Assembly (NCBI GenBank): GCA_026874595.1 | Contig: CM049306.1 | Location: 11,181,019-11,245,018, forward strand | Length of the DNA stretch: 64,000 bases | Direction: 5' to 3' | Source of the DNA: Sipunculus nudus | Lineage: Eukaryota > Annelida > Sipuncula > Golfingiida > Sipunculidae | In this document: piece after piece, positions 4,513-60,236 of the stretch | How positions within the stretch are numbered: the stretch's first letter is position 1 | Layout: each line of letters opens with the position of its first letter | The notes under the pieces: model-generated | What the model was told of the DNA's origin: nothing | Database searches by the model: none | Seen by the model: the letters and a program-made list of their open reading frames with translations, nothing else | Translations under genes and position numbers: made by a program

Positions 4513-4684
4513 AACAAGGCCTACAGGCCTAATGCGAACCTGTGCGGAGTTTGGGAGTATGAATGGAGGTTTAAAATTTAATATTGATCCTTTTAAGTCC
4601 TGCATATCTACCTTAGTCATTATGATTTTAGCAAAATGGACATTTCAGACCTGCAGGTTTCAGGACAGGACATTTTAAAACTAG
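4513..4684 (-). mobile_element. Family A element, left (3') portion, broken by a family C element
   Basis: It starts with the diagnostic AACAAGGCCTACAGGCCT hairpin followed by GCGAACCTGTG. The next 150 bp matches the complete short A copy at 58853-59316 (shared GGAGTATGAATGGAGGTTTA). The match stops at about 4684, where a family C left end begins. Confidence 0.75.
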
Positions 4685-6740
4685 AATATGGGTAGTCGAC
4701 AAGCGACTATGTGTATCCGCAGAAATCAGAGTGGGACAGATGAATTGAGGCATGGATTAAGTGGCAAGGGAAACAGAGTGAGGTGTGTTGCATATTAGCA
4801 TGGATGTCTGCAGCTTAAATGTGAATGTAGGTGGTGCCACCTGTCATAAAATCGAGAAAATTGTCCATGATGTATAAAGCTGCAAAATTACAGGTGGATA
4901 AGTCAAACCACTTCTGAGATATGAGTTATTTTATCCCAAGTCAGATGAACAGATGGACGCTGTGCATAAGTGGTTGTAGGTGGCGCCACCAGTTTTGCCT
5001 ATGATGAAGAGCTATGTGAGATCTATAAACATGCAAAATTTTGTCCCAATCGGTCAAACGGTTCCCGAGCTATGAGCTTGGATGTCAGCAGAGTAAACGT
5101 GAATGTAGGTGGCACCACCTGTCTTAAAACGAGAAAGCTGTCCAGGATGTATAAACCTGCAAAATTTTAGGTGGATAAGTCAAACCACTGCTGATATATG
5201 AGTGATTTTAGCCCAAGGCAGATGAACAGATAAGTGCTGTGCATTAATGGTTGCAGGTGGGGCCACCAATTTTGCCTATGATGAAGAGCTATGTGAGATC
5301 TATACACATGCAAAATTTTGGCCCAATCGGTCAACAGTTCCTGAGATATGAGCTTGGATGTCTGCAGAGTAAACGTGAATGTAGGTGGCGCCACCTGTCA
5401 TAAAATCGAGAAAGCTGTCCAGGATGTATAAACCTGCAAAATTTCAGGTGGATAAGTCAAACCACTGCTGAGATATGAGTGATTTTTAGCCCAAGGCAGA
5501 TGAACAGATGGGTGCTTTGCATGAATGGTTGCAGGTGGCGCCACCAATTCTGCCTATGATGAAGAGCTATGTGAGATCTATACACATGCAAAATTTTGGC
5601 CCAATCGGTCAACAGTTCCTGAGATTTGAGCTTGGATGTCTGCAGAGTAAATGTGAATGTAGGTGGCGCGTCCTGTCTTAAATCGAGAAACCTGTCCAGG
5701 ATGTACAAACCTGCAAAATTTCAGGTGGATAAGTCAAACCACTGCTGAGATATGAGTGATTTTAGCCCAAGGCAGATGAACAGATGGGTGCTGTGCATTA
5801 ATGGTTGCAGATGGCGCCACCAATTTTGCCTATGATGAAGAGCTATGTGAGATCTATACACATGCAAAATTTTGGCCCAATTGGTCAACAGTTCCTGAGA
5901 TATGAGCTTGGATGTCTGCAGAGTAAACGTGAATGTAGGTGGCGCCACCTGTCTTAAATTGAGAAACCTGTCCAGGATGTATAAACCTGCAAAATTTCAG
6001 GTGGATAAGTCAAACCACTGCTGAGATATGAGTGACTTTTAGCCCAAGGCAGATGAACAGATGGGTGCTGTGCATGAATGGTTGCAGGTGGCGCCACCAA
6101 TTTTGCCTATGATGAAGAGCTATGTGAGATCTATACACATGCAAAATTTTGGCCCAATCGGTCAACAGTTCCTGAGATTTGAGCTTGGATGTCTGCAGAG
6201 TAAATGTGAATGTAGGTGGCGCGTCCTGTCTTAAATCGAGAAACCTGTCCAGGATGTACAAACCTGCAAAATTTCAGGTGGATAAGTCAAACCACTGCTG
6301 AGATATGAGTGATTTTAGCCCAAGGCAGATGAACAGATGGGTGCTGTGCATTAATGGTTGCAGATGGCGCCACCAATTTTGCCTATGATGAAGAGCTATG
6401 TGAGATCTATACACATGCAAAATTTTGGCCCAATTGGTCAACAGTTCCTGAGATATGAGCTTGGATGTCTGCAGAGTAAACGTGAATGTAGGTGGCGCCA
6501 CCTGTCTTAAATTGAGAAAGCTGTCCAGGATGTATAAACCTGCAAAATTTCAGGTGGAAAAGTAAAACCACTGCTGAGATATGAGCGATTTTATCCCAAG
6601 GCAGATGAACAGATGAATGCTGTGCATAAGTGGTTGCACGTGGCGCCACCAGTTTTGCCTATGATGAAGAGCTATGTGAGATCTATACACATGTATGCAA
6701 AATTTTGGCCCAATCTGTCAAACTGTTCCCGAGAAATGCG
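4685..6740 (-). mobile_element. Family C element, right end missing, filled by a satellite-like array
   Basis: The left end has the hairpin GTAGTCGACAAGCGACTA and then GTGTATCCGC. The rest is the array described at 4800-6740. No right end (TTTTGGCGGATACA) follows. At about 6733 the sequence changes into family B core (AGTGGTTTTGATATTAGGCAG), so the element is truncated. Confidence 0.7.
4800..6740. repeat. Satellite-like array: 138-bp monomers, 277-bp dimers, 553-bp higher-order unit
   Basis: The word GCTTGGATGTC recurs at about 5076, 5352, 5630, 5906, 6183 and 6459, a period of 276-278 bp. Each unit holds two diverged monomers of about 138 bp, each starting with a form of AGGTGGCGCCACC and containing an ATGCAAAATTT-like segment and GAGATATGAG. 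Alternate dimers are more alike: those at 5352, 5906 and 6459 carry the intact palindrome, those at 5630 and 6183 carry GGTGGCGCGTCC and GAGATTTGAG. This gives a 553-bp higher-order repeat. Related monomers occur at 13330-14020, 22900-24120 and 51150-51840. Confidence 0.88.
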
Positions 6741-6797
6741 GGTTCCAGATGAGTGGTTTTGATATTAGGCAGAACCGAAGTGTTAAATTTAGGTTTT

Positions 6798-9064
6798 AAC
6801 AAGTGACCCAGGGGTCATGACGCTCAGCTGACTGACATGTTGACAATATGTCCCTGCATAGGGAACTAATTACGATAATGGAGGTGGCAACATCAATCAT
6901 GCAAGTAAGCTTAAGTTCATTAAGACGCATAAGCACACCAAATTTTAGGACAATCCATTCACCCATTCCTGAAGAATCTCGCAATTTGTGTGCTTTTTTT
7001 GCATTATTTTAGGGGTCTTCAAACATGCCGCAAAAATTAAAAAATATGGGTTATAGACACCTATAATTTCAAGTTTGCAAGGAGACTTATTATCGACCTC
7101 CCTGGATGTCAAATCAGAAGATTCTAGGTCCAATGGTTATGATTTGTGCACTGCTTTTGTTTAAAACTTTAAATTGTTTGAGGGCACTTTTGAGCGCCAT
7201 AGCTCAAATGGTATGGGTAAGAGAGACCTAATTCAGGTTTCCTTGAAGACTTTTCATGGACCTTCAAGGATGTCAAGTTGAAAGATTCTAGGTCTAATCA
7301 ATATGATTTGTGCCCTGTTAACAGATGACCTCATATCCTTGATCAATATCAATGCAAAGAATCATGATCAATGCATTAGTTGTTCAGATACTTGAGCTTT
7401 TGTTTCCAATTTTCCATTACTCTGGGGGTATTTCAGAGGTTTTGGGTAATAGAGACCTAATTTTAGGTTTCCTAAGAGACTTTTCATGGGCCTCCTGCTT
7501 TCATCTCCCCAGCCATAGTTAGGCTTGTTTATAATGCCTTTATTTTTAATGGACCAAGCCATTTTAATGGACCTCTCTGCATGTTAAGTAAGAAGATTCT
7601 AGATACAGCATTTACAATTTGTGCCCTGCTAACTGATGACCACATCTTTAAAGGTCTCAAAAATAAAGTTAAAAAAAAAATTATTAAATAAAAAAAATAC
7701 AGGTGGCACCACCTGTCTGCAGAAACTGATGAAACACTCCATGATAAAAGATCAAAGAATCATGGCGATCAATGCATTATTTGTTCAGATACTTGAGCTT
7801 TTCTATGAAATTTCCCATTATTCTGGCAGGTAATTCGCAGCCCCTTAGCTGGAAGAATATGGGTTACAGAGACCTAATTTCAGGTTTCCAAGGAGATTTT
7901 TCATCGACCTCTCTGGATTTCAAGTAAGAAGATTTGTGGTCCAGGGATTACGATTTGTGCCATGTTCACAGATGACACCGTCTTTAAAGGTCTCAAAAAT
8001 AGAGAAAAAAAAATTGTAAAAATAAAAAATATACAGGTGGCGCTTCCAGTTTGCAGAAACTGAAGAAACACTCCATGATCAATATCCATGCAAAAAATCA
8101 TGGTGACCAATGCATTAGTGTTCAGATACTTGAGCTTTTCTATGAAATTTTCAACTATTCTGGGGGGTACTTCACAGCCCCATAGCTGGAAGAATATGGA
8201 TAACAGAGACTTAATTTAAGGTTTCCAAAGAGGTTTTTCATTGACCTCTCAGGATTTTATGTAAGAAGATTCAAGGTCCAGCGGTTACAATTTATGCCCT
8301 GTTAACAGATGACAGCATCTTTAAAGGTCTCAAAAATAATAAAAAAAAATTGTGAAAATTAAAAAAAATACAGGTGGCGCAACCAGTCTGCAGAAACTGA
8401 TGAAACACTCCATGATCAATATCCATGCAAAAAATCATAGTGATCGATGCGTAAGTTGTTCAGATACTTGAGCTTTTGTATGAAATTGCCATTATTCTGG
8501 GGGGGGGGGGTACTTTGGAGCCCCATAGCTGGAAGAATACGGGTAACAGAGACCTAATTTCAGGTTTTCAAGGAGATTTTTATGGACCTCACTGGATGTC
8601 AAGTAAGAAGATTTTATGTCCAGCAATTACTATTTGTGCCCTGTTAACAGATGACAGCATCTTTAAAGGTCTCAAAAATAAAGAAAAAAAATTGTAAAAA
8701 TTCGAAAAAATACAGGTGGCCCACCAGTCTGCAGAAACTGATGAAACACTCCATGATCAAATCCATGCAAAGAATCATGGTGATCAATGCATTAGTTGTT
8801 CAGATACTTGAGATTTTGTATGAAATTTTCCATTAATCTGGGGGGTACTTCGGAGCCTCAGAGCTGGGTGAATAGGGTAACAGAGACCTAATTTCAGGTT
8901 TCCAAGGAGATTTTTCAGGGACCTCTCTGGATGTTAAGTAAGAAGATTCTAGGTCCAGTGGTTATGATTTGTGCCCTGTTTAAGGACAGACGCCAGGACG
9001 GCCAGACGGACGACGGACAAAGAGTGATTGCTAAAGCTCCGATGACTTACAGTCAGCTGAGCTA
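6798..9064 (-). mobile_element. Family B Helitron-like element, complete ends, 338-bp internal array
   Basis: The left end AACAAGTGACCCAGGGGTC plus GCTCAGCTGA and the right end CAGCTGAGCT bracket 2.27 kb. The flanks show it sits inside another family B core: the left flank ends AGGTTTT and the right flank resumes AATAAAAAATGGAGG, which are adjacent in intact copies such as 33505-33525. This gives exact ends and a T^A target with no target-site duplication. The interior is a tandem array (6990-8985) and a GGAC-type microsatellite next to the right end. No ORF suggests a Rep/helicase, so it is non-autonomous. Confidence 0.82.
6990..8985. repeat. Tandem array, ~335-340-bp period, inside family B element
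   Basis: TGCAGAAACTGA recurs at about 7719, 8052, 8389 and 8729, with partial diverged units to the left. Each unit carries ATACAGGTGGCGCCACC (variously degraded), CACTCCATGATCAATATCC, and GAGACCTAATTTCAGGTTTCC. One unit has acquired a G run at 8499-8510. Confidence 0.85.
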
Positions 9065-12990: not shown

Positions 12991-15957
12991 AACAAGGCCT
13001 ACAGGCCTAATGCGAACCTGTGCAATGAGATTACACCAGGTATAATGCTTCAATGCTGGACCATTACTTTTCAAGAACATGTGTAACATGTATATGAACA
13101 ATGCAAGTACTAATCACTTAGAACAAGAAACAATTAAACAAACATCACTGCTGCAATTCTGGCATGGGTGCACACAACACAAAAACTTTAATATGGGTAG
13201 TTAACAAGCGACTACGTGTATCTGCCAAAATCAGAGTGGGAATGGTGAAGTGAGGCATAGATTGAGTGGCAAGGGGAAATAGAGTGAGGTGTGTTGCATA
13301 ATAGCCTGGATGTCTGCAGCCAAAATATGTATGTAGGTGGTGCCACCTGTCATAAAATCAAGAAAGCTGTCCAGGATGTATACACATGCAAAATTCAGGT
13401 GGATGAGTCCAACCAATGCAGAGTTAGGAGTGTTTTTATCCCAAGGCTGATGAACAGATGGACGCTATGCAAAAATGGTTGCAGATGGCACCACCATTTT
13501 TAGTGTATGTTATAAAGATTTCCAAGGGCTACATTTGTGCAAAATCTTTAGCCTTATCGGTCAAACAGTTCCCGAGATATGTGGGTTTATGTGTGGAAAC
13601 AGACACACAAATGGATGCTCAGCAGAGAGGAAAGGTCAGAGGTCAACCAAAAATGAGGGCGCAGCAGTTCACATATGACCGATCATAATTCCGAATTTTA
13701 AAAAATTCTGCCCAGTGGTTATGGAGGAGTTCTCCGGAAACCTAAAACTCTGTTTTGGCGGATACAATGATTGTAGCTGGCACCACCAGTATGTCAAAGA
13801 AACCCCTCCTATGAAATAAGCAGGGACGTACACTGTGCAAAAATTATTGTACGTGGCGCCACCAGTTTTGTACACTATAAAGCTACCCGATATGTATATA
13901 CATGCCCAATTTTAGGCTGAAGTATAAAATTCCTCTGTAGAAATAAGCAGGCGCATACACTGCAAAAGTCAATGTTGGTGGCACCACCTGTCTTGTAAAT
14001 GAGAATGCCATCAAAGACGCATAGACAGGTAAAAATATCAATCCAATACATCAAACTTCCCCAGAGTTTGATGCACTGGGCTGACAAGGCTTAGGTGAGT
14101 AAGGCAGTTGCCCCCGAGTGACCTGTGACAAATTGCTGCCTCAAGCTACTGCACTGAGTGAACCCTTGACCTGCACCTGGCTAGACTGAGTGAACTTTTG
14201 ACCTGTACCTAGCTGCACTGAGTGAACTCTTGACCTGTTGCATAATCTGACACAGTTGGCAGTCTGCCAAAGCTATAAATAGATTCAGGCTGCACTTTGG
14301 TGCCAAATATGATGCAGTGAGCAGTCTACCAAAGCTATAAATAGAATGCAGCTACTGCACTGAGTGAACTCTTGACCTATACCTGGCTGCACTTCTTCCA
14401 ATCCTGGCACTGTGCCAAAACTATTTATAGAGCTGACATCATCTTGGCTAATGGCCAACATCAAGGCACTGGCAATCTGCCAATGGTAAACCAAGTGCTG
14501 CCATCTGTACACAAAAGTGGTCCCTACTTGTAATAACTTTGAAATTCATTTTCCCAATACAAAATGCTTTTCAGCTGACTTTTTATAAGAAAGAAATCAG
14601 GAATATATGTAAAATTATTATGGATACATACTGGATGCAAAATTAAAATACAGATATATCTCATTGATGGCAAATTCTTGAATTAAGTTGATTAGGGATA
14701 CCAATAATGTATAATCCACGTACAGTTGTCTCTATACAGCCACAGAGAACTGAATATCCATGATTGTAACATTGCTTGGTATGATGAATAACTTACATCA
14801 TAAATCTAAATTTTTTAAAAGCTTTTAAAAAAACTTTCTTTAACAATATTAACCAAAGATAACCTGAAAGCTAAATGTCTCGTGGCATGATGTAATAGAT
14901 GCTGATAAACTGGTGCCAGGCTAGATGTAACGGCATCACACAGCTAACATTTATGGTAAAATGACTCAATTCAAGCTCAATAATTCAGCCAAAAATCATT
15001 CATGGGGAACCATTAATGACAATTATTATAAGAATAATTGTAGGGATTATTCTTGTAAAATATTTAACAAACTGGCTTCAGTGGCATCAGTGGAAAACGT
15101 TTTGCAGGTTTATAACTCATATAGGAAGATGCAGCAAACTGGCCAAGTTCAGCTCCCGTAACTCAGCCAAAAAGCACTGAACCAAAACCATTTGAACAAA
15201 TTTGAATTATCAACATCTAAGGATAATTAATGTGTGAGATTTAAGAATTTGGCTAGTGGTTTTTGAGAAGAAGATCTTTGTAGCCACTGAGCTAAAATGG
15301 GCTGTTATGACATATGACTAAATTCAGCTTCCCATAACTTTGCCAAAAGTCACTGAACTGAGACCATTTGAACAAACTTCAGAAAGCACTACCCTAGGAT
15401 CATTTCTGTGCGATATTAAACATTTTGGCCATATGGTTTCAGAGAAGAAGTTTTTTGTAGCCCTCAGTGTGATACAGGCACTGATGACCCCGTACAAAAA
15501 AGGCCAATGCAGGTGGCACCACAAATACCTCAATTTCAGATATGACTTATGTGACCAACATAAGCTCCAGCCGTTTCTGAGATTTAAATTTTTTTATATG
15601 CTTTTTTGCACAGGTAACAAAGTTCAACCTCCTGTAACTCAGCCAAAAATCTCCGAACTGGAACGATTCGAACAAACTTGAGAAAGATTGTTCCAGGGAT
15701 CATTTCTGTGAAATATTGGACAATTTGGCTGGACAGTTTCGGAGAAGAAGATTTTTAAAGCTTTTTTAGCTTTTTCCCTCTGAAATCTAAGAAAATGAAG
15801 TTAGAAAAAAAATAAACAAAATCCAATATAGTTTTCTGGATGATTGATTATTTGCAAAATACTTGGTGATGCTAGCTCCTGCTGTTTTTGAGATAGCTAT
15901 GGTTAACGTACAGACGATGCACGACGCCGCACCATCGCATAAGCTCACAGATTCACT
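12991..15957 (-). mobile_element. Family A element with nested family C ends (A+C composite, copy 1)
   Basis: The left end AACAAGGCCTACAGGCCT with GCGAACCTGTG, and the right end GCATAAGCTCACAGATTCAC, bracket about 2.97 kb. From about 13192 to 13770 it contains family C material: a C left hairpin, satellite-type monomers, and TTTTGGCGGATACA. It then holds further monomers, a block rich in GAGTGAACTCTTGACCTG and TCTGCCAAAGCTATAAATAG (14090-14510), and the common A right part. Copy 2 starts at 22562. No protein-coding potential recognised. Confidence 0.8.
13192..13770 (-). mobile_element. Family C segment nested in family A copy 1
   Basis: The left hairpin reads GTAGTTAACAAGCGACTAC (one arm slightly mutated), followed by TGTATCTGCCAAAATC. 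The right inverted repeat TTTTGGCGGATACA lies at about 13753. Monomers with AGGTGGTGCCACC and TGGCACCACC lie between. Confidence 0.75.
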
Positions 15958-18107
15958 AAAAAACAATGTTCATAAAGAGTATAAAGATTCTTACACCTGT
16001 GAGGGTCATCACAGATTCCTGAAAGAAGGGAGAGCTGAGTGGTCTGAACACATATATGCTTGAAAAATCATTTCAGAATCACTGATTTTGCAAATTTTAG
16101 TGGTTCATTTACCTTGAGGGTTATGGAAAATTCATCTTAGCTGAGAAATCTCTTGAACACATTTATCCTGGATAAGAAATATACTGCATATTGTCAATAC
16201 CGTCAGAGGGTGACAACATACATTCAACCCCCCCCCTTCAGGCTACTTGGTTTTGTCACCTATAAAATATAAGACTTTTGTTCCATGTCACTGACTGGTC
16301 CAGACCAGATGCTGATTGGGATTTGGTTTGGCCAAAACCATAATCATTAACTTTTAGGAAAGAGAATGAGTTCCTGTTCAGTTCAGCACAGACCTTGATT
16401 CAAAGCATTCCTATATCCCTAACAGGATGTTTGAAATTATAACTAAAATGACAACTTTTTATTTAGTTTGTTGTCAGTGTTAATTATTCTACCTAAATAA
16501 CTTAACTAATATTTAAGTTTGAATTAAGTGATTATATTTATTTGAATTATTCAATTTATTATATAACAACTGAACTAGTTTAAGCTGACTCACTGTGTTA
16601 ATAAGTGTATATATTTGATGCGGTTTGAAGGTAAAATAAATTGTTAGATGGATGACATATATAAGAATATAAGTATCAAATGAAGTTTTCAGTCCCCAGT
16701 TTTCAAAAATGGATATTCTTAACTTGTATTGATTTATGAACAGCTTCCATTCAAGTGAAAAATCCTGATTTCATGAAAACCAACCATTTATAACTTCTCT
16801 TATCAACATTTTCAACTATATATACTTATATATTCATATTTTTATTATATATCTTAACATATAAAATAAAATTTTTCACACAACTTGGTTTATTATTTTC
16901 ATGTCTTAACCTTATGGTATATAATGTTTACTCTAAAAGCCTGCTCTAGTCTGCCATGGAATCTCAATCAGGAGGTGCTTCAGACTAGATCCAGATTGGG
17001 GTAAAGGCCAGACTGAATCCCGATCGGGAATCGGTCCAGCCCAGATCCTGATCGAGATATGGTCTGGACAAAACCCTGATCAGGATCTAGTCTGGACAAG
17101 GGCTGGACCAGATCCCGATTGGGGTTTTGGCCGAACCAAATCCTGATTGGGATCTGGTCTGGACCAATCGCCAATTGGTCCAAACTGGGATCTGGGCCTT
17201 GACATATACATGTATAGTAGATAAACTGTTATCAGCATCATCACTGGTAACATATCTGTACCTAAACCAGCCAGTTCAACTAATTAAGTCACATCATTTT
17301 CAACATGCTAATTACTGATAATATTCATCCATAGTATCTTCTCAAGTAGAAAGGCTATGCTTTCTCCCTGTTTGTGTGTTAGGATATTTTATCTGGCTGT
17401 GAGGGAGTGATCTATAAATCAAAGGCTGGTTATGTCACAAAGGAGTGGGTTTCTTAATAACAACATAACCATTTCTGAGCCAGATTTCTGCCTGTTAACT
17501 TCTGTTCTGGTTCAGATCAGTGTAAGGATATGATATGAAGCTGCCTTGATTCAATTATCTCAGATCCATTATATTCCTCTTTCTTACACATCATGTAGTG
17601 CTCTGTAAATAAGCTTGCTGACCATTGACAGTGCAAACAGTGGTCTGCTGTACCTGTGTTGTGAGTCTGACGAATAGTTTACTGCATGAGCAGGTTGTAA
17701 ACAGATTACTTATATGTTACTCTTGATTGTTACTACACAGAAATGCATGGTGCAAACTTACAAAAAGATTTATATATTCATAATCAGTATAATTAAATGA
17801 TTAAAATTGTACATTCAAAAAATTTTAAAATCTTTAATTTTTTAGGACCTCAAAGAAACTTCAGTCTACATCATATAACAATAAGCTAAAGAATTTTTTT
17901 GTCAACTTGACATGGAACATAAAAAAAAATTCCTATACTGAGATCATACTGATGTTGTGTCATGGATAACATTAGAACAGATCTGCTGAAGTTAATCCTT
18001 TTTTTTTATAAAATCTATATTACTCCATAAATATTATAATGCCATGTATAACCATGTTAAATCTGAAAGATAAAGTCTATTAATCAAAATTAATCATGTT
18101 ACATTTT
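15958..18107. other. Intron with a dispersed palindromic repeat at about 16930-17215
   Basis: Most is AT-rich and unassigned. At 16930-17215 there is a run of related short words (CTGATTGGGATCTGGTC, CCCGATCGGGA, CTGATCAGGATCTAGTCTGG) that form many small inverted repeats and end in TCTGGGCCTTGACATATA. A related block with the same closing words (TCTGGGCCTCGACATATA) lies at 39070-39390, so this is a dispersed repeat. A lone unit occurs near 16297-16335. Confidence 0.6.
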
Positions 18108-19517
18108 AACAAGGGACCCATGGGTCACGGCGCTCAGCTGAAGTTTGAAATTTTTGCAAATGCCATATATGCAAAATATTCTATTGTAATGTTTTTCATT
18201 TATATAAGCATATGAGAACCTACAAGGAAAGGGGCCCTCCTACTTGGTTTTAGTAAAGTTCTAAATATATGACTGCAAACTAATACTCTGACAAGACTGT
18301 CATGAAGAAAAACAGTAAAAGTTTTGAGATACTGTGATGCATATGAATGATTTACAGATGGACAGGCAAGTGGACAGAATGGACTAATACCTTTATTTCA
18401 CTTTCAAGGGAATAATGCATTTAAGTTTATATATAAGCCTACTTTTTAAAGCATATCCACTTTAGTCAATTTCACACCTGGTGAAGTTTTCACTCTTCTG
18501 AAGTAAGAATTTACTTATCTGATAAACATCTACACTTTCATAGCAATACACCACTTTGTGGACACAATTAAATGTGCACTTTAATCATTGTAACCCTGGT
18601 GGTACAATTCAAAATCTAAAATGTAGCATAGCCAAGAATAAAAGAAAATACAGAAAATTATAACATTCATCTAGTTAATGCACCATCTGGGGAGGGGGGG
18701 TGCAGGGCAGAGGGAAAGCCTGCTAGTAGTGGCCAAGCTGAGCCAAGGCAAGCTGCCTGGGGTGCGTTACATAATGCAAGTGAAGGCTGTGTTACTAGGT
18801 GGGCTAGATGTAAACAACACTTGACATGGTGTATGAAAACTTGAATAAAAGCTACTCTTTTCAATCAATTCCTTTGAAATAAATCAACAGTGCTTACAGG
18901 GAAAAAACGTGCCATAGCCAAAGTTGGACAAAATTTAAGGTATTGATTTTTTATTTATGCTAATAACTTGAAAAATTTGCAAAATTCTGATATAATTTTG
19001 GGTAAACTATTGAATCTTGATTAAATAATGTTATATTCCTGAAAAAAGTCTCCAGCTTCAGCAATTCTCATGTTAGGTGAGTAAATATATTTCCTAATTT
19101 TTTAAAAATTACATTATATTTTGGCCCATAACTTCAAAATAAAACCCAATACTGACCTAATTTTTGGTATGTTCATAGAAAATGTATGGAAAAATATGAA
19201 TACTAAATATGATCAAAAACAGATCAGTGGTTTTGATATTAGGCAGTCTTAAAGTGTAACAATGGCTTTTTTATGGAAAACGGAGGTTTTTCTTTAATAT
19301 CTTGAAGGAACGAAGTCCTAATGACCCAATTTTTGGTATGGTAGGAGATTCTGGGGACATCTAATGGTATGCAAAATTTTGGATTGGTAGGTCCAACGGT
19401 TTTAAAACGTGCCCTGTTAACGGATGGACGGCTGGACGGACAGATGGCCGGACGGACGGACAGACGACGGACTAAGGACCACGACTATAGCTCAGATGAC
19501 TTATAGTCAGCTGAGCT
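18108..19517 (-). mobile_element. Family B Helitron-like element, complete (1.41 kb)
   Basis: The left end AACAAGGGACCCATGGGTC plus GGCGCTCAGCTG and the right end AGTCAGCTGAGCT bracket the element. The left flank ends ACATTTT and the right flank begins AAAAACAGTG, again a T^A target without an obvious duplication. Inside are a block shared with 31970-32400, one unit of the family B core (GTGCCATAGCCAAAGTTGG to GGAGATTCTGGGGACATC) and a GGAC microsatellite at 19425-19470. No coding capacity is seen. Confidence 0.85.
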
Positions 19518-19539
19518 AAAAACAGTGTCATACCTCAAA

Positions 19540-21984: not shown

Positions 21985-22561
21985 AACAAGGCCTACAGGC
22001 CTTATGCAAACCTGTGCAATGGGATTTTCACCAGGTATAATGCTTCAATGCTGGACCATTACTTTTCAAGAACACGTGTAACATGTATATGAACAATGCA
22101 AGTACTAAACACTTTGAACAAGAAACAATTACACTAACATCACTGCTGAAATTGCTAGACTGAGTGAACTTTTGACCTGAACCTGGCTGCACTGAATGAA
22201 CTCTTGACCTGTTGCATAATCTGACACAGTTGGCAGTCTGCCAAAGCTATAAATAGATCCAGGCTCAACAATGGTGCCAAATCTGATGCAGTGGACAGTC
22301 TGCCAAAACTATAAATAGGATGTAGCTACTGCACCGAGTGAACTCTTGACCCGTACCTGGCTGCACTTCTTCCAATCCTGGCACTATGCCAAACTATTTA
22401 TAGAGCTGACATCATCTTGGCTAATGACCAACACTAAGGCACTGGCAATCTGCCAATGGTAAACCAAGTGCTGCCATCTGTACACAAAAGTGGTCCCTAC
22501 TTGAAATAACTTTGAAATGAATTTTCCCAAAACAAAATGCTTATCAGATGACTTTTTATTA
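21985..22561 (-). mobile_element. Family A left (3') portion, interrupted by the next A copy
   Basis: It starts AACAAGGCCTACAGGCC and ATGCAAACCTGTG, then runs through GATTTTCACCAGGTATAATG into the GAGTGAACTTTTGACCTG block. Compared with the copy at 12991 it lacks the nested C segment and monomers. It stops within GACTTTTTAT where a second A left end begins at 22562. Confidence 0.7.
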
Positions 22562-44770: not shown

Positions 44771-46285
44771 TGGAATAAGGGTAGTCGACAAGCGTCTACG
44801 TGTATTCGCCAAAATCAGAGTGGAGTGAAGTTAGGCATGGATTGAGTGGCAAGGGGATATAGAGTGAGGTATGTTGCATATCAGCATGGATGTCTGCATC
44901 CTAAATGTGTATGTAGGTTGCACCACCTAGCACAAATGCAGAAAGCTGTCCAAATTGTATTCAAATGCAAAATTTTAGGCAGAAAAGTCAAACCACTACA
45001 TGTATATGAGTGATTTTATCCTACAGCAAACAAACAGAAGGACTTGTGCAACTAGAATATCAGCAGAAGCTGACAAAAGCCCTCAGCCAAAACAACAGTG
45101 TTTAGAGGTGGTAACAGTAACAAGTACCAAATATCTGTTCTCACATGGATGTATATCTGTACATGTCTCAGTTATAAATTTAAAATGGAGAGGTATGTAC
45201 CATGATTCATAACAATCCACCAAATGCTTCCTGAAAAATAAGCTTCTAAGTTTTATTCTATTATAAGCTCTGTGACCTTGAAAAGTAGGTCAAGGTCACC
45301 CATCTTCGAACTTGACCGAGATTTTGTAGATATACCTCTTCACCAAAGAAATAAAATTCCTCTTGTGAATCCTTTTAGAGATATCCCACTCACAAGGCCA
45401 AAGTTGAAAAATCCAAGAAAAATTCATTAAAAATCAGAAATTGCAGGTGGCACCCCCAAACTTGTGCAGCAGTTACAGACCATCAGTCCCTATGATCATA
45501 GTAAGAATTGTGAAAATCCACCAAATGGTTTCTGAGAAATAAGCTTCTAAATAATTTTTCTATAATCAGCTCTAAAACGTAGAAAAATAGGTCAAGGTCA
45601 CCCATCTTCGAACTTGACCGAGATTTTGTCAATATACATCTTCACCGAAAAAATAAAATTCCTACGGTGAATCCTTTTAGAGATATTCTGCTCACAAGCC
45701 CAAAGTTGAAAAATCCAATAACAATTCATTAAAAATCAGTAATTGTAGGTGGCACCACCAAACTTGTGAAGCAGGTACAGACTATCAGTCCTAATAATCA
45801 TAGTAAGTTTTGTGAAAATCCACCAAATGGTACCTGAGTAATAAGCATCTAAGTGTTTTTCTATAATCAGCTCTAAAATGTAGAAAAATAGGTCAAGGTC
45901 ACCCATCTTCGAACTTGACTGAGATTTTGTCGATATACATCTTTACAGAGGAAATAAAATTCTGACGGTGAATCCTTTTCAAGATATCCCGCTCACAAGG
46001 TAAAAGTTAATGGACGCCGGACGGACGGACGGACAGCTTGGGTGACGACAATAGCTTGTTTATGTATGGAAACAGACGCACAAATGGTCGCTGGCCAGAG
46101 AGGAAAGGTCAGAGGTCAACACAAATTGGTTACGCACCAGTTCACATGTGAACCAATAATTGGTGTAAGTTTCGGAAAAATCCGTCCAGTAGTCTCAGAG
46201 GAGTTTTCCGGGAATGAACGCAGCAGCGGCAGCGGAACCAGGTCAAAAACATAGTATCTGCAAAACTTCGTTTTGGCGGATACAA
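44771..46285 (-). mobile_element. Family C Helitron-like element with a ~302-bp array
   Basis: The left hairpin GTAGTCGACAAGCGTCTAC, followed by TGTATTCGCCAAAATC, and the right TTTTGGCGGATACA at 46270-46283 bracket about 1.5 kb. The interior has an array of about 2.7 units of about 302 bp (words ATCCACCAAATG near 45215, 45516 and 45818), each with AGGTCAAGGTCACCCATC and TAGGTGGCACCACC. A GGAC stretch (46013-46034) and a segment shared with 13590-13650 follow. This is the cleanest stand-alone family C copy. Confidence 0.78.
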
Positions 46286-46344: not shown

Positions 46345-47330
46345 TGTCTGACCTCACAGTGAAGCATCATGCTCAATGTCTCACAACATCATACCAGACA
46401 CACTTCTAACCTCACAGTGAAGCATTGTGCTCAGTGTCTCACATCTTACCAGACACACTTCTGACCTCACAGTGATGCATCGTGCTCAATGTCTCATAAG
46501 GTCATACCAGACACACTTCTGACCTCACAGTGATGCATCATGCTCAATGTCTTACAGCGTCATACCAGACACTTCTGACCTCACTGTGATGCACCATGCT
46601 CAATGTCTCACAGCGTCATACCAGACACTTCTGACCTCACAGTGAAGCATTGTGCTCAGTGTCTCACAACATCTTACCAGACACACTTCTGACCTCACAG
46701 TGATGCATCGTGCTCATTGTCTCATAAGGTCATACCAGACACACTTCTGACCTCATACTGATGCATCATGCTCATGTGTCTCACAACATCATACCAGACA
46801 TACTTCTGACCTCACTGTGATGCACCATGCTCAATGTCTCACAGCGTCATACCAGACATACTTCTGACCTCACAGTGATGCATTGTGCCAATGTCTCATA
46901 AGGTCATACCAGACACACTTCAGACCTCACTGTGATGCACCATGCTCAATGTCTCACAGCGTCATACCAGACACACTTCTGACCTCACTGTGATGAACCA
47001 TGCTCAATGTCTCACAGCGTCATACCAGACACACTTCTGACCTCACTGTGATGCACCATGCTCAATGTCTCACAGCGTCATACCAGACATACTTCTGACC
47101 TCACAGTGATGCATCGTGCTCATTGTCTCATAAGGTCATACCAGACACACTTCAGACCTCACTGTGATGCACCATGCTCAATGTCTCACAGCGTCATACC
47201 AGACATACTTCTGACCTCACTGTGATGCACCATGCTCAATGTCTCACAACGTCATACCAGACACACATCTGACCTCACAGTGAAGCATTGTGCTCAATGT
47301 CTCACAATGTCATACCAGACACACTTCTAC
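46345..47330. repeat. Minisatellite, ~58-bp unit, about 17 copies
   Basis: Units read CTTCTGACCTCACAGTGATG, CATGCTCAATGTCTCACA, CGTCATACCAGACACA. Several variant positions (CAGTG or CTGTG, CACAGCG or CATAAGG) recur in patterns, suggesting multi-unit amplification. Confidence 0.92.
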
Positions 47331-50300: not shown

Positions 50301-51035
50301 AAAACAATGCAGTTTCACTTTCTATCATATAATCATCATTCTTCAGATTTGGTGAAAAATTTGCCTTTGTTTCTCAATATGCAACTATTTATGTTTCATA
50401 ACTTTTCAATAACCATGTCATGGTGTGACAAACTGATTATTCTGAAGTTAAACCTTGAAATATGTGGGAAAAAATGATAAACAGAGAGGAAATCTCTTGA
50501 TCAATGAAAAATCTCTGACTGTACATGAAAATTATCTGAATATGGCCATAAGAGGTGATTTAAACGTTCGCATTAATGTAAATCTGGCTGAACTAGGAAT
50601 AATTTCTCAGGCAAGATCCTATTGTTTGAATCAACTGCATTGCATTGAGTACATGTATTCAACATTTTAAGTCAATTTTCTGTAAGCGAATATTGAAAAT
50701 ATCTTATTATATAACAGACCTGTGAAAATCACCTGTTATTTGTTGAATTTGTCACAAAACCAAGCAATAAACTACAGGTGCTACTTGTATTTATTATAAA
50801 TCCACCATTTGGCACAAGGTACTATTCTTTAACATTAATTTGTCTGTCAGCAAATTTATGCAATTAGTTCAGAACAGATTTTGTAGAAATTTTGATGAGG
50901 TTTAGGAAAACACCAGTCTGTTAATGTCGGATGTTTGGATCACCTTACAAATTTTACTTGCTGCTTTTTCATTATAATAGAGCTGTTGATTGTTATTACT
51001 AATAATATTTATCATGATAACATTTATAAAACTGG
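47331..51035. other. Intron, mostly single-copy
   Basis: No gene or repeat family recognised in this AT-rich stretch. Several short open frames have no recognisable domains. Confidence 0.45.
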
Positions 51036-51840
51036 AATACGGGTACTCGACAAGCGACTACGTGTATCCGCCAAAATCAGAGAAGGACGGGTGAAGTGAG
51101 GCATGAATTGAGTGGCAAGGGGAAATACACATCACATAAACATGATTGTAGGTGGCGCCACCTGTTATTTGAACGAGAAACTATCCAAGATGTATACACA
51201 TGCAAAATTTCATGTGGAAAAGTCAAACCACTGCAGAGATATGAATGATTTTATCCCACAGCAGACAAACAGATGGACGCTGTGCAAAAATGGCTGCAGG
51301 TGGCGCCATCATTTTTGTGTATGTTATAAAGATATGGAAGGGCTACATTTGTGTAAATTTTTTTTCCTGATTGGTCATAGGAGTCCGGAGATATAAGCAT
51401 TAATGTCTGCAGCATGAACGTGAATGTAGGTGGCGCCACCTGTCATAAAATCAAGAAAGCTATGGGGGATGTATACGCATGTTGAATTTCAGGTTATTTA
51501 GTCAAACCACTGCAGAGATATGAGTGATTTTAACTCAAGGCAGACAAACAGATGGACGCTGTGCGAAAATGGCTGCAGGTGGCGCCACCATTTTTATGTA
51601 TGTTATAAAGCTATCCAAGGGCTACATTTGTGTAAAAAAATTTTCTGATTGGTCAAACAGTTCCCGAGTTATGAGCTTGGATGTCTGCAGAGTTAACGTG
51701 AAGGTAGGTGGTGCCACCTGTCAAAATCAAGAAAGCTATCTAGGATGTATATGCATGCCGAATTTCAGGTGAATTAGTCAAACCACTGCAGAGATATGAG
51801 CGATTTTAACCCAAGGCAGATGAATAGATGGACACTGTGA
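51036..51840 (-). mobile_element. Family C element, right end missing
   Basis: The left hairpin GTACTCGACAAGCGACTAC, followed by GTGTATCCGCCAAAATC, leads into satellite-type monomers of about 138 bp with TAGGTGGCGCCACC (51151, 51297, 51427, 51576, 51706). Similarity stops at about 51840 with no right terminus. Confidence 0.75.
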
Positions 51841-54374
51841 ATTATTGCTTATATTATCAGCATGTGGCTCGAAGAGCATCATGGCCTGGGTCTGATGTCT
51901 CCAACAACATCTTGTATTTCATGTGTACTTATGCAATTTGAATTTCTTTTTGATTCATATATAATATGATACCATCACCCTATTTTTATATTAAAGTAAA
52001 AACCACACCATCCAACTATCTCTTCATTACATTCTGACTGTAACATTGTAATACCATGTTTTAAAAGTAAGACATTTATTTAGATATTTTAAATCTCCAA
52101 TGCTCTGGAACTAATGTAAGTATAATTTACAGAGTAAGCTTAAAACCACTGTCACAATTGTGACACCATAATGATTATCTTGGTGACTTGGACATACTTC
52201 TTGACATTCACCAACATACCTCTTGACTTTATTAATATAGCTGCCCTGAAGTACTGCTTAAGTAAAACATTAACAGCAACATAGGAGGGAGGTATCACTA
52301 TAGCCAAGCAGACTCAGTCAGCTGTGATTAAGAACAGGTTTGACAGCAGCATTCACACACATTGACTATTGACTTTTTAAGCACAGACTGATACTGGTTC
52401 TGTTGTAATACTGGAGGCTAATCTACCATCAGAAGGACACAGAGTGCAAAAACAAAAGGTAAAAAAATAAAAGCAAGCCATGCTAATGGAGGCAAACCAA
52501 TTCTGAAATTTTCATATCAAGAAAACCATTGAGACCCGGCAGCTCTGATAGTCAGGAAGAGTAAATATCAGGCCCCATTAGGAGTCCTCCCTCTCATCAA
52601 AGGCTCCATTACCCACGGCTCTCCCACTCACACCCCCAGCACCGCCGGCATGATCTGCTGCTCTGTTCTGATATTTCCTGACCAATCAGATGAGAGTCCG
52701 GGATCATCGTTGTTTACGTTACACTCCCCTCACTCTGATCATTAAACACTGTAAATCTTCACCTGCTTCATTTTAATGCTCATCATCACCAAATGTATGT
52801 CATAACCAATGGTAACCAGTAAATCTTCTGGTCTTGAGGAAGGATTCATGTTAATGTTCACTCAGATGTATGAGCTTCACCCTTATCATTCATGAAATAC
52901 AGATACATATTTCAAAATTTAACTGATGCACACTTTTGTTTTGCAATTTACAAATAAAGGATGGTTACACTGTTGGGTGCTTTGACAAGAATTACCTTTC
53001 AAAAATGGTCAGTTTCTCCACTCTTCCGTAACTCCTTTTATCAAAGGATCATACTTGGTGAAGAAGACTCTGACAAAATATTTCACTGACAGGTGATAAT
53101 TGATATTCTGCTGGATTCATTTACATCTAATATTTTGACTGCCTATTTACTTCAAAGCAGTTAATTCCTTGGTAAATAAAATTATATTCCTAATTTAGTC
53201 AATTTACTATGGCAACCACCAATGCTACAAACCTGAGGGTTACCACATATTCATTTTATTTAATAAATGTCGTACAGCAACGTACCTGTGTCCTGGCTGA
53301 TAAATAATTTATTATTACTGATAACTATAACTAGGTAATATGTCTGGTATCACCACTGACATCACTTTCACTGACTTTACTTTATTCTCTCCTTCTTGAT
53401 CCATCCAGTTGATTAATTTTTTTCCATAATTAGCTCCATTGGTAGACATTCTAGGTTACAACACCAAAGGAGTGGTGTGAACCACTGGTGGAAAGATAGA
53501 GACTGATACTGCCCATACTATTACACAATCCTTGCATCTGCAAGACTGGCATATAAAAAGAAGACCTGCTCTACAGGGTATCATTTCTAATACAAACCAC
53601 GGCACTAACAGAACACTGGCTACCCTCCTGAAGAAACAAGCATATTATGAAACATAAACTACATTTAACTGGATAAGGTCAAGAGGAGATTTTTTTTATT
53701 TCCCTGTTTACACATGCTTACCATACAACAGGTAATCAACCTCACTTTATGAGGAGAAAACTCTCATATGGGTTTCATCTTAGCTGCCATCTGACCCACC
53801 TGACTTTACGAGGAGAAAACTCTCACATGAATCTCATCTTGGCTGACATCTGACAGACACCTGGCTCCTCACCAGGTTGATGTTTGTTGCCAGGTATATT
53901 CAACTATAAACAAAATGTTATCTCAAGGCTGGCCACTTGGTCTGACTGAGTATATACACGTGTAACTAATGTTCCAGGCATCAGTCTATAAAACCACCTA
54001 GAGCTAACATTCCTGGGACAATGTACCTTATCATCTGGATTCAGGGTCATTCAGTGAAAATCTCCAAAAGACTGGAAATTGAAGGAAGGGTATTACTTTA
54101 TTTCCCATTTAAAGGGGTGGGGGTTGTATAATGTAATTATTTTATTGTTAATGAAAAATTCTATTTTTCTGGTATTATCAGCAATACTTTATTTCATTAA
54201 ACATGGATGTATATAACTGTTTGCAAATTTGTGTCTTGAATTTAATAGTTATTATTTATATTTCTAAGCATTAAAATAAAAATTAAAATTTGTGTAAAAA
54301 CAGTGACCTAATGTTTATGTCATTGTGGAACTTCCAACATTTTCCAAAATAGAAAAAGTATCCTGTACATGTCT
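51841..54374. other. Intron with a GC-richer island at about 52530-52760
   Basis: Mostly AT-rich and unassigned. The island includes CACCCCCAGCACCGCCGG and CCAATCAGATGAGA; the latter 14-mer also occurs at 57992. Near 53740-53860 a segment (GAGGAGAAAACTCTCA, TCTTAGCTGCCATCTGAC) is repeated once in tandem, about 65 bp apart. Confidence 0.4.
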
Positions 54375-54960
54375 GCCAGAGCATGTTTATTCTGGCTGTG
54401 TCTGGGACTTGATCTCTTTAACATGTCTATTCCGGCTGTGTCTGGGACTTGGCTGTGTCTTCGACTTGATATCTCTTTTACATATCTTTCCCCGCTGTGT
54501 CTGGGACCTGATCTCTTTTACATGTCTATTCTGGCTGTGTCTGAGACTCGATTTCTTTTACATGTTAATTCCAGCTGTGTCTAGGACTTGGTCTCTTTAA
54601 TATTTCCCTTATGGCTGTGTCTAGGACTCCAGGTTTCTTTTATATGTCTATTCCAGCTGTGTCTTGGACTTGGTCTCTTTACATGTCTATTCCGGCTGTG
54701 TCTGGGACTTGATCTCTTTTACATGTCTATTCTGGCTGTGTCAGGGACTTGATCTCTTTTACATGTTTATTCCGGCTGTGTCTGGGAGTTGGTCTCTTTT
54801 ATATGTCCCTTACGGCTGTGTCTGGGACTTGGTTTCTTTGATATGTCTATTCCAGCTGTGTCTTGGACTTGGTCTCTTTCCATGTTTATTCTGGCTGTGT
54901 CTGGGACTTGATCTCTTTTACATGTCTATTTTGGATCTGTCTGGGACTTGACCTCTTTTA
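54375..54960. repeat. Minisatellite, ~47-bp unit, about 12 copies
   Basis: Units read GGCTGTGTCTGGGACTTG, ATCTCTTTTACATGTCTATT. Open frames through it (CLGLDLFYM-like) are products of the repeat and not genes. Confidence 0.9.
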
Positions 54961-57930
54961 CTGGATCCTGTCCATGTTGGTCTTCATGTAATGGCAGAAT
55001 AAGTGAATAATCTCATTAGATTTTTTACAGAAGGGTCAAAGGACAAGGCTTTAGAAGAGAGGCTATTATTTACTCTTAGTTATTATCTGTTGAATTAAAC
55101 TAGTCTGTGATAAGAAAGGCAATAAATTTCTGGTGTGGGATGAAGCTGTCAGCCAACAGAGTTTATGACTCCATACTGCTTTTTCACTTTTAACCCTTAC
55201 ACAATTACAACTTAATTACTGTGCAATAACATGAACAGCTCTTCAATTGCTTTTACTTTCTTGAAATTACTTTTTACACAAATCCACAATAAATTAATTC
55301 ATTCTAATCGTGCCACCTCCAATGTGGATTGCAAAGCAATTGCATTTTCCTATTATTATTGTCAGCTTGCATATCAAATTAATCAACATTTCATTCACAG
55401 CCTCGCAGACAGTACAAAATGAACTACTTGTCAGAATAACATTTGACATTAAATGTTTCATTCCCCTTTCAGATATATTGCATTTTAATTTGTTTGGTCT
55501 CTTTTTTAGTCAGCGATGGACAAAGAAATTAATTAAAGCTCATAATATTTATAAAATCAATTACAATACCAAAGCAATTATTTAACTTATGACATCTGTG
55601 AACAAGGAGCTTTTTCTATAAGAGCAGGGGGCTTATTCTATAGATGAGACTGCCCACTGAATATATTTAAAGCTATCACTTGAGGGGTATGGATGATAGA
55701 TTACTTAAGAGGCTTTGTATTTGAGGTGTATAATTAATAAATTATTCGTAGTTATAGGTTCATCAGGAGGAATGTAAGTCACTTGGTATAAATTTATTTA
55801 CATTTATTAGTTATTTTAGTGTTACCTAGCTACAAAATGTGAGCCCGGTGTAAGTCTTTTGCTTGAGTAACTTACAAAATGCTTTGGAACTTTAATTTTT
55901 CTAAGATGATTGTTTGGATGAGAAGGCCAATAATATACACTGCAAAGTTCAGAAGAGATCACTAATGATAGTGCTGAAGATTTTAGCATAATGACAATGT
56001 TACACTAATAATAATTCTGAAGATTTTTCCACAATAGTCCCGTTGCACTGATAATGATGCTCAAGATTTTATTATAATGATGTTAAGGCAAAATAATAAC
56101 ATAATGATGTTGACATTATACTGATGGTGAACAGTTCACTGCAAAGATATTGTAACTGAAACAAAGTTGGAAATTAAATCAACTTTTACCATTATGATAC
56201 AGATATCAACAAAATGTTGCTGAGGTTTTATCAGTAATGATGCTAACTTCATGATTCTGTGATTATTAATGATGTTTAAGACCTGATGTAGACTCATGAG
56301 TATCATGGTGACTGATCTGACATTGTCCTATGTCTTTGTCATGATCTCATCTGTAAATTAATAACCCCTGTTCTCCTCTTGATGATGAGAAATTACCCAT
56401 CTCCCCCTTGACTACAGCCAGGGGGTACACTCAGTAATGGCTGGAAGAGATGAGAGACAGAACTGGGCCAGTCAATCCTCAACCAGCCTACCAGCATGCA
56501 CTCTCGGCCAAACAGCAATCCATCTTTTCACACGAAACAGATGAAGAAATCAAGAGGCACATTCTTTTTTCATCCACATCTTCTGGGAAGCAAGGAAGTT
56601 CACTCAAAATTTAAGATTTTACAAATAAATACAATAAATTTGGAGTGAATTGATTTTCCCATGGTTTGATTTACAACTGGCCACATTTTGATGTTGGCAC
56701 AACTAAGATAACATCACTGAACATTATGTATGACTATAATATTGGCTTAATCATGCATAAATTATTCATACCTGGCTGATCAATCGAAAGTCTATTTCCA
56801 GGATACATGAGGATTATCATGAAATATTCAAATAATAATTTCCATCTCATAATAACCTTTCCACAAAAACATGGGATATTTTTGTAATGCAACAGAACAA
56901 AAGCACAGTGCTGAAGGAAATTTCAAGGAAATACTAAATTTTTAACCATTTTGCCAAGAACTCATGAAAGCACATTTAATTTGTACATCCATACACCAGT
57001 TGTTCCTTAGCGAATCCCTTGCCCAACACACCTTCCTCTGATAACCATTATTTACCTCAAACAGCACATTATGCCTGGAAAATTTGATAAATTGCTTTGA
57101 AAGAGTTTCATTAAGCCTTTACCATTCAGATTATTTTTTATGTATTCCTGTGGGTCTATATATTTAACTTGATTGCCATGGTCTGTACATGACATAATCA
57201 CAGAAAAATTCCTTTTCTTTTACCTAAACTTGAAATCTCTGCATTTATTGATAAAAATCATTTTATAAATTGCTTTGAAAATAGCTTTATTAAGCCATTC
57301 AGAATAGTTTTTAATGTATTCCTGTGGGTTTTTATATTGCATTGTAAGTGACAAAATCATTAATTTTTTTCATTTAAATTGAAATACATTTATTGATAAA
57401 AAAAATCATATACTTGTACTGTCTAAATCTTTATACATGTTAATACAGTATATAAGCACTGCCATAGTCACTTGAAATATGACTTTTATGTCAGATGTAG
57501 TTTAAATGAATAATAATATATTGTCAGTAAGCCAGCTCATAATAACAACACAGAACTTTACAAAGTGGAAAAATTCCAATGTATGTAAATGGTAAATCCA
57601 TCATGAATTGAAAATGAAAGTGTCTTCTCACAAAAAGATGGGTTTGGGTTATAAATTTTTCTGGTTGTTAAGGCTTGGTGAAAACTGTGACTTTTTTAAT
57701 ATTACAGGTTACAGACAAACCAGAGTTATACAAAGGGTGTTTCCAACAAGTGACCTTTCAGCTTCTGCACATGTGCAACCAAACTTTTACAGTTGCAAGA
57801 TTTTTCTGTTTGTTATTATGTATCATGTTTACTTTAAAAGCTTGTTGGTAAACAAGCAAATTCATAGGTCACAGAATACGCTCTTTACACCGCGCTTTAA
57901 CTATAGGCCTATACTCCCTATATCGTAAGC
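54961..57930. other. Intron, single-copy, AT-rich
   Basis: No exon or repeat family recognised. 55230-55590 is dense in TAATTA-like and CAATTA-like words. Two diverged copies of a segment containing AATTGCTTTGAAA, CATTAAGCC and GTATTCCTGTGGGT occur at about 57085-57155 and 57265-57335. Confidence 0.4.
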
Positions 57931-58560: not shown

Positions 58561-58852
58561 GCTGCCTCGGGAGCGTAGTCACAGAAGTGTTATATGAAAA
58601 TTTCTTAGTAGGAATTACCTACAGTTCATCACTATGTACACAAAGCCAGAAATCACATTCTACAGATGAGGCAGACAAATAGCTGAAGAGATTTTCACTG
58701 GATTTAGTTCTTAATTAGTTGGGGGAAAACAGCAGAAAAAAGTATCTGTAATCCTAGCTGGAAAAATTTTTCCAGGCTTGATTACCTTTTCTTAGTTCTT
58801 GGAAAATCTTGTGTCAGGGAGACCATTTCAAGTTGCATTGATAACAAAGCCT

Positions 58853-59316
58853 ACAGGCATAATGCGAACCTGTGCTAAGTTTGGGAGTATGAATGGAGGT
58901 TTATTTTTAAAATTTAATATTGATCCTCTAATGTCCTGCATATCTTCCTTAGTCATTATTATTTCTGCAAAATGGACGTTTTGGACCTGCAAGTTTCAGA
59001 CTAGGATATTTTAAAACTAGGATGTATCAGTCAGGATTTTTCGGATATGTTCTTTTTGCCAGGGAGGATTATTGGGACAGATGAACAGACAATTTGGCAG
59101 CATAGCTTTGGAGAAGAACATTTTTTAATGTTTTTTAGCTTCTTCCCTATAAAATCTAAGAAAATGCAGTTAGTTAAGAATTAAGCAAAATCCAATAGAA
59201 TTTTTTGCAAAAAAATTTGGTGATGCTAGCTCCTGCCCTTTTTGAGATAGCTATGATGCATGACGGTCGACGTAAGAAAGACAAAGCCATACCATGCATA
59301 AGCTTACTGATTCGCT
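58853..59316 (-). mobile_element. Family A element, short complete copy (464 bp)
   Basis: The left end AACAAAGCCTACAGGC plus ATGCGAACCTGTG and the right end CATAAGCTTACTGATTCGCT define it. Left flank ...GCATTGAT and right flank AAAAATGCAAACC give the same T^A insertion context as family B. It lacks tandem arrays and nested C, so it shows the minimal A layout. Confidence 0.82.
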
Positions 59317-59383
59317 AAAAATGCAAACCAAGTTTTTTCAAACAGTTAAAAGATATAGTTCCAATAGTTCTAATCTGGGCATT

Positions 59384-59456
59384 CTGCGTCTAGACAATGT
59401 GTCCAGACGTCTAGATGCTGTGTCTAGTCTTCTAAACACATTGTCTAGACACCAGA
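59384..59456. repeat. Inverted repeat hairpin (GTCTAGACAATGTGT arms)
   Basis: GTCTAGACAATGTGT and ACACATTGTCTAGAC are exact inverted copies, with the TCTAGA-containing CCAGACGTCTAGATGCTG between them. It could be a tiny MITE or a cruciform-forming site. Confidence 0.75.
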
Positions 59457-59749
59457 CAGAGCCAGGTCATTTGCCATGGTGATGTCTGGACCCCACCTGG
59501 TTGTACTGAGTGACCTCTTGACTTCTCTGCTGAATCTCGCATGTTTTCAAACACAGAAAGCCTTTATTCAATTGGCTACATTACTTTTTTAAAGCTGCAT
59601 TTTCCCAATTAATTCTAATAAAACTGGCAGAATCCTACCATAGAATAAGTCTTGTTAAGATTAAACCAATCAGCTTAACAGTTTCATCATAAAACATAGT
59701 ATAAGCTAGAAGGGTCTAAAATTACATTTTCGCTTGTAAAAAACAGATC

Positions 59750-60236
59750 AATGTAGGTGGCGCCACCAATACCTCAATTTCTTTTATGACATATGTCACA
59801 ACATTGGCTTAAAATTTTTTGATGATAGCTCAAGCCATTTCTGAGCTTGAAATTTTAGTGTGCTTTTTTGGACAGATGACCAAGTTCAACCTCCTGTAAC
59901 TTGGCCAAAAATCTCCAAACTGGAACCATTCAAACAAATTTGAGAGAGATTGTTCCAGGGATCATTTCTGTGAAATATGGGACAATTTGGCTGGACAGAT
60001 TCAGAGAAGAAGATTTTTAAAGCTTTTTTAGCTTTTTCCCTATAAAATATAAGAAAATGCAGTTAGAAAAGAAATAAACCAAATCCGATAGAGTTTTTCA
60101 GATGACTGATTATTTGCAAAAAAATTGGTGATGCTAGCTCCTGTGATTTTTGAGTTAGCTTTGGTTAACGTACAGACAACACACGATGCACAATGCCACA
60201 CCATCGCATACGCTCACAGGTTCGCTAATAAAGGTG
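59750..60236 (-). mobile_element. Family A element, right (5') portion
   Basis: From TAGGTGGCGCCACCAATACC to the terminus GCTCACAGGTTCGCT at 60236 it is collinear with 3985-4480 and 15505-15957. No left end was found. Confidence 0.72.

Follow-up and report, generated by a model that had tools for sequence, protein, structure and literature searches.

Families A, B and C, the three repeat families described here from the peanut worm Sipunculus nudus, are, with a probability of about 0.92, non-autonomous rolling-circle transposons of the Helentron/Helitron2 type (HINEs), lying on the minus strand. As such they are unremarkable representatives of an element type already known, and what is new is the link between one HINE family and its partner, together with a local pattern of orientation. 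The two ends of family B, and part of its 5′ body, recur in a 14.9-kb Helentron found in the same genome. Along positions 0–25.9 Mb of chromosome C1, elements have a common orientation across families in blocks of tens of kb to about 1 Mb. This span includes the stretch of 64,000 nucleotides that was analysed (the window), which lies at C1:11.18–11.25 Mb in a genome of 1.43 Gb and 153 contigs.

The families and their copies in the window

The repeat words on which a preliminary description of this DNA had built the three families were found where it had placed them, all of them above the expectation from dinucleotide-shuffled sequence of the window. With at most one mismatch, GCGAACCTGTG has 8 sites against 0.27 expected, GGCCTACAGGCC 4 against 0.07, GACCCATGGGTC 6 against 0.03 and GCTCAGCTGA 19 against 2.33; TGTATCCGCCAAAA, with at most two mismatches, has 8 against 0.33. 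Genome-wide, there are 4,214 exact copies of a 27-letter 3′ end of A, 17,304 of a 30-letter 5′ palindrome of B and 3,303 of a 27-letter 3′ end of C, and the reversed-pattern control gave 0 for each. A 14-letter repeat of C has 13,081 exact copies, against 13 for its reversed control, and a 43-letter C pattern, present at 134 places, was too rare for use in determining orientation.

The preliminary description had also named the co-occurrence of paired ends at defined distances as a test, which the C word passes. Among its first 100 places listed there are 18 neighbour pairs at most 3 kb apart, and 14 of them read plus then minus, two plus–plus, two minus–minus and none minus then plus; 0 of 20,000 shuffles of the strand labels reached 14 pairs of the first kind.

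The following copies and parts of copies were recognized in the window, in order of position:

1474–1506, minus strand: left end alone, B-like; another, weaker, at 1970–1996
3086–4481, minus strand: right part of an A, with its right end at 4481
4514–6744, minus strand: A left end (4514–4684), then a C left end (about 4680) and a 276-bp array; right ends not identified
6799–9064, minus strand: complete B of 2,266 bp with a 337-bp array, inside another B; its 5′ part is 84% identical to the autonomous partner
12992–15958, minus strand: complete A with a nested C inside
13185–13766, minus strand: C nested in A
18109–19518, minus strand: B with both ends, 1,410 bp
21986–22562, minus strand: 3′-end fragment of an A, directly adjoining the next A
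22563–28217, minus strand: A with a nested C and a B piece
22756–23860, minus strand: C nested in A, with a 278-bp array
25988–27642, minus strand: B piece inside A, with its right end at 27642
28703–29720, minus strand: 3′ part of a host B, which continues at 33747–35377
29721–33746, minus strand: guest B within the host B, with an empty-site match at the junction
33747–35377, minus strand: 5′ part of the host B
44769–46284, minus strand: stand-alone complete C of 1,516 bp, with a 302-bp array and an ACGG microsatellite
51031–51844, minus strand: C left end and array; right end not found
58844–59317, minus strand: short complete A of 474 bp, reading ACAAAGCCTACAGGC...GATTCGCTA on the plus strand, with a TTTT target
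59739–60227, minus strand: right part of an A, with its right end at 60227 and a TTAT target
61882–61914, minus strand: B left end only

The copies had been taken as separate, which had to be revised, as several lie inside others (C in A, B in A and B in B). Two 3′ ends of one family stand directly in tandem at 21986–22563 of the window and at positions 1456–1553 of locus L048, as might result if a 3′ end was bypassed or gained. The window also contains arrays with units of 58 bp (46347–47328), 40 bp (54451–54961), 145 bp (62030–62572) and 38 bp (62774–63691), and these minisatellite or satellite arrays possibly belong to further HINE families. Three open frames of at least 120 codons are listed for the window, and searches for Rfam families and tRNAs gave no match.

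The plan that we propose for the elements runs, on the minus strand, from a 5′ end with a subterminal inverted repeat, which is palindromic in B and C, through a microsatellite and usually a tandem array to a 3′ subterminal inverted repeat, a 3′ palindrome and the end. If they follow the known Helitron mechanism, Rep would nick the 5′ end, replication would then displace one strand, which would end at the 3′ repeat and hairpin, and the freed strand would be joined into a T-rich single-stranded target.

Ends, insertion sites and element type

Both A and B, read on the minus strand, begin with TAGC and end with CTTGT (B also with CTAGT); the termini of A are TAGCGAACCTGTG...CTTGT, and C starts with TGTATCC and ends with CTAGT. 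The element borders, on which the preliminary description had made its reading depend, could be placed for B and C by three paralogous empty sites, one for a C in A and two for a B in B; there is none for A. For the C in A (L077/L078), the joined flanks equal an uninterrupted A of the window in 69 of 70 bases, with no gap. For the guest B at 29721–33746, the joined flanks align with two uninterrupted B copies; there is one mismatch and no gap around the junction, and a 7-base gap 12 bases past it. For the B in B at 6799–9064, one uninterrupted B matches, with a one-base gap in the T-run beside the junction, another gap about 20 bases off and several mismatches. No target duplication is present at the C-in-A and B-in-B empty sites.

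Insertion is mostly between TTTT and T (A and B) or between TNAT and T (C), without target duplication. The bases before 24 C 5′ ends (25 rows less L106, which reads as a 3′ end) are TNAT in 16, TTTT in 4, TNAG in 2 and TATT in 2, with T at position −4 in 24/24, and the C 3′ ends read CTAGT|T in 15/15. Since L074, L076 and L102 share host sites, as do L099, L100 and L104, the 24 ends represent at most 20 events. The 5′ flanks of B (n = 20, L118 and L122 being at a common host site) are TTTT in 17 cases, TTAT in two and TATT in one. Those of A (n = 10, with two near-identical A ends in L004) are TTTT in six, TCAT in two, TTAT in one and TTGA in one, the last of which we count against our reading of the elements' identity. 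From the counts for A, B and C we therefore derive a common T-N-A/T-T|T tendency, with preferences that differ by family.

A hairpin had been reported on the left (3′) side only. This is correct for A, whose right (5′) end has no palindrome (DNA fold −0.9, z 0.75), and incorrect for B and C, in which the right palindromes are the stronger ones (−10.7 kcal/mol, z −5.9 in B; −11.1 kcal/mol, z −7.5 in C). The left palindrome folds clearly in C (z −3.5) and weakly in A (z −1.4), and in B it is short and energetically weak, folding no better than shuffles (z +0.9). Between the 3′ repeat and the 3′ terminus, the sequence of a palindrome is present in all three families, with strong folding in C only. 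Palindromes at both ends, the 5′ one including the repeat, as is characteristic of Helitron2, occur in B and C and not in A. One pair of the left-end palindrome of B is A–T in 20 and G–C in 6 of 27 ends, a change that may be one event because all six ends come from one subfamily.

The asymmetric inverted-repeat word described for both ends of A, B and C was recovered in each family. The accompanying claim that the three are unrelated in sequence, having diverged completely, is too strong: of 46 left ends taken from the window and from 70 loci, 37 have the motif A|AC(A/T)AG at or near the start (A 5/6, B 24/27, C 8/13), and the right-end letters C-TA are common to A and B.

The minus-strand reading as Helitron2/Helentron-type elements agrees with the asymmetric subterminal inverted repeats at the two ends, the 3′ palindrome, the T-rich site without target duplication (seen from flanks and empty sites in B and C, from flanks alone in A) and the Rep/Pif1 Helentron that has the same two ends as B. 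Helitron1 was considered and rejected, as it requires 5′-TC and CTRR-3′ ends, an A|T target and a 3′ hairpin only, whereas the ends here are TAGC or TGTATCC and CTTGT or CTAGT, and the target is T-rich. MITEs, with terminal inverted repeats and target duplication, were ruled out by the ends, the target and the empty sites. A cut-and-paste origin as MITE-like elements bounded by terminal inverted repeats, which is how the bivalve Pearl elements used to be read, is hardly credible: the short inverted repeats near both ends, the high copy number and the lack of coding capacity would suit such an origin, but the repeats of A, B and C are asymmetric, the empty sites have no target duplication, and the ends of B flank a Rep/Pif1 gene.

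In those parts of the published accounts that were compared, Cg_HINE of the Pacific oyster and Pearl (PMC7492417) are similar in their 11–12 bp subTIRs, an inverted repeat beside the 5′ one, a GTCC-type microsatellite, a tandem array, a 3′ palindrome, a TT-rich target without duplication and several families unrelated in sequence. According to that account, the oyster elements could not be related to autonomous ones, unlike B here, and the compared part of that account, unlike our results, makes no mention of local orientation agreement. DINE-1/HINE elements and Helentrons (PMC4067079) share the plan, the T-rich TT target with variable Ts and a Rep/helicase partner with endonuclease, whose ends the HINEs share; unlike there, the four bases 5′ of the element here (TTTT/TNAT) fit the target and not the element in the empty sites found. 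Helitron2 of Chlamydomonas inserts at TTTT before T or C (PMC3627910) and FoHeli1/2 of Fusarium at TNAT before T or A (PMC5148889). Both have ATIRs with a 5′ palindrome and no duplication, as here, and the insertion sites in our material resemble one or the other; they differ in that here a single animal genome has both types of target and the partner of B has a weak endonuclease match.

The autonomous partner of family B

The preliminary description had proposed a search of the genome for an autonomous Helitron2 with the same termini. Helitron_like_N was matched 143 times in this genome and not at all in 14 control genomes, and a partner with Rep, a Pif1-type helicase and the same ends was found for B only. 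It is a Helentron of about 14.9 kb, in three copies (on C17, C10 and C5) that are about 94–99% identical in the stretches aligned in order. In all three, the 5′ 17-mer TTTTAGCTCAGCTGACT is exact at the start of homology, and the B 3′ end lies where homology stops, with different flanks beyond. The element has an open frame of 2,342 codons with matches to Herpes_teg_N, DUF6570, Helitron_like_N (Rep, HUH-type) and PIF1, and with a weak match to Exo_endo_phos (20.5 bits, under the Pfam cut-off of 24.5). Herpes_teg_N is the Pfam name for a protease-like domain and does not imply a virus. Over its first 730 bases the partner matches the window B at 9069–8355 at 84%, and the 337-bp array of this B has a match in the partner's 5′ array. 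As the copies on C17, C5 and C10 (L043/L045/L047) all hold a C at the same place in the 5′ part, this C was captured before the partner copies spread. One autonomous copy has, near its array side, a 367-codon open frame matching DDE_Tnp_IS1595 (L056, 5765–6865).

We examined 24 Rep loci, including those of C11, C13 and C17, with the 3′ side partly read. A B-type 3′ end in coding orientation stands at 11 of the 24, always beside C17-like coding sequence, and 11 of the 12 C17-like loci have one, the exception being L058. The search thus succeeded for B and not for A or C: in the limited 3′ stretches read at the 24 loci no 3′ end of A or C was seen, which does not prove that such partners are absent. 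Related Rep/helicase proteins, which the preliminary description presumed to recognise all three families, may do so; the partner found is that of B. Upstream of the Rep at C8:36.63M (L053) there is an A 5′ end, which was rejected as a sign of an A partner, as it belongs to an A element with a nested C. L068 and L069 are alike as far as a poly-T, and may reflect a local duplication. A second, larger clade of Helentrons (L039, L041, L011–L032) carries OTU, DUF6570, Rep, Pif1 and a clear endonuclease, with no A, B or C ends in the stretches read; the Exo_endo_phos matches of C11-type Helentrons are clear, at 50.1 and 48.2 bits.

Orientation along chromosome C1

All 17 left ends found in the window are on the plus strand (17/17). 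Beyond the window, our lists of places cover the first part of C1, to 4.5 Mb for B, 22.8 Mb for A and 25.9 Mb for C. The first 100 places listed fall into 26 strand runs for A (shuffled mean 50, minimum 30) and 15 for B (mean 37.5, minimum 22). Neighbours 5–200 kb apart agree in 47/57 cases for A and 63/72 for B, values that 0 of 20,000 shuffles reach; the baseline agreement of B is 0.635 because 76 of its 100 places are on the minus strand. With the three families merged, 156 of 174 pairs agree at 10–30 kb (65/69 between different families), 428 of 537 at 30–100 kb (161/211) and 431 of 566 at 100–200 kb (156/217). Agreement is 975/1,569 at 0.2–0.5 Mb and 1,518/2,453 at 0.5–1 Mb, and at 1–2 Mb it is about half (1,956/3,695).

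Cross-family tests were made on places at least 10 kb apart, with circular shifts of the labels as the null. A and B agree in 17/18 cases up to 30 kb and 25/26 up to 100 kb, and 0 of 26 shifts reach either. A and C agree in 14/17 up to 30 kb (reached by 1/99 shifts), weakening beyond this distance to 35/56 up to 100 kb (7/99). When the orientation of C was read from the sequence, it agreed with B in 11/12 cases up to 30 kb (0/17 shifts) and 16/18 up to 100 kb (3/17), and with A in 6/6 (1/24) and 16/20 (0/24), respectively. In the list search, C agreed with the nearest B in 5/6, which is not significant (523/5,000 shuffles). Orientation agreement is therefore strong for A and B and weaker for C. 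Neighbours of Rep domains, from 89 of the 143 matches, agreed in only 7/13. GC and AT skew outside elements (−0.03 and 0.00 in 34,151 bases) says too little, and a fragment of an LTR-type integrase was also found.

Our preferred hypothesis, to which we give a little less than even odds, is that replication forks would expose the target strand in one direction, as the lagging-strand template. Two rivals to it deserve serious weight. Transcription rather than replication might set the pattern, through insertion into, or survival in, strands determined by gene direction. Transcription also yields single-stranded DNA, and the orientation of elements within genes can be under selection; the blocks on C1, however, reach about 1 Mb (75 of 78 merged entries are on the minus strand at 0–1.25 Mb), which exceeds one ordinary gene and makes this explanation rather doubtful. 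The blocks could also be mere history without a strand signal, if new copies insert close to their source, or if source and copies are duplicated together in one orientation. Such local spread is compatible with the composites (C in A, tandem 3′ ends) and with the peak of agreement at short range, but we consider it unlikely, since the different families agree in those 65 of 69 pairs at 10–30 kb and only one pair is alike among 20 B flanks, from which it follows that most B copies are separate insertions.

The strand skew of the T-run target is a very improbable cause. The targets are T-rich, and in a control with CATTTTTGA (100 sites thinned to 51, tandem arrays dropped) ten consecutive sites at 0.35–0.97 Mb are on the minus strand, as are the local elements. 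Against this, the control has no excess agreement (8/20 at 5–30 kb, 26/47 at 30–100 kb, 39/67 at 100–200 kb, and 18/32 with the nearest B), and TTTTT occurs 243 times on the plus and 258 times on the minus strand of the window, in which every left end found has one orientation. Matches to CATTTTTGA are regularly spaced at C1:2.9–19 kb, 291–307 kb and 1.849–1.884 Mb, which suggests tandem arrays in these three stretches.

For exposure of the target strand by replication forks there is a bacterial precedent in the IS200/IS605 elements, which target the lagging-strand template and whose orientation follows replication, according to the part of the account compared (PMC5371812). IS608 and its relatives are alike in their HUH-type enzyme and in orientation along the chromosomal direction; they differ in an unrelated element plan and in that the link to replication is reported as experimental there, whereas we infer it here. 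Helitron transposition with one donor strand has been described (PMC5876387, in the part compared). Among the titles and abstract openings listed on Helitrons, orientation and replication, none describes orientation blocks of Helitrons. A wider proposal, which we offer tentatively and would sooner bet against than for, is that animal Helentrons insert strand-specifically at single strands exposed by forks, so that thousands of insertions would map germline fork direction as a eukaryotic counterpart of IS200/IS605, and that TTTT|T and TNAT|T would be two settings of one T-N-A/T-T|T rule of related Reps.

The results tie a satellite-carrying HINE family to an autonomous Helentron; the authors of the oyster study, in the part compared, report that they could not make such a link (PMC7492417). 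Since the partner itself holds an array of this type, the result is relevant to the origin of satellite arrays in HINEs. The orientation pattern deserves a genome-wide test: if the agreement between families holds across the genome and against a non-Helitron control, the use of fork strands by eukaryotic rolling-circle transposition would become testable from sequence alone.
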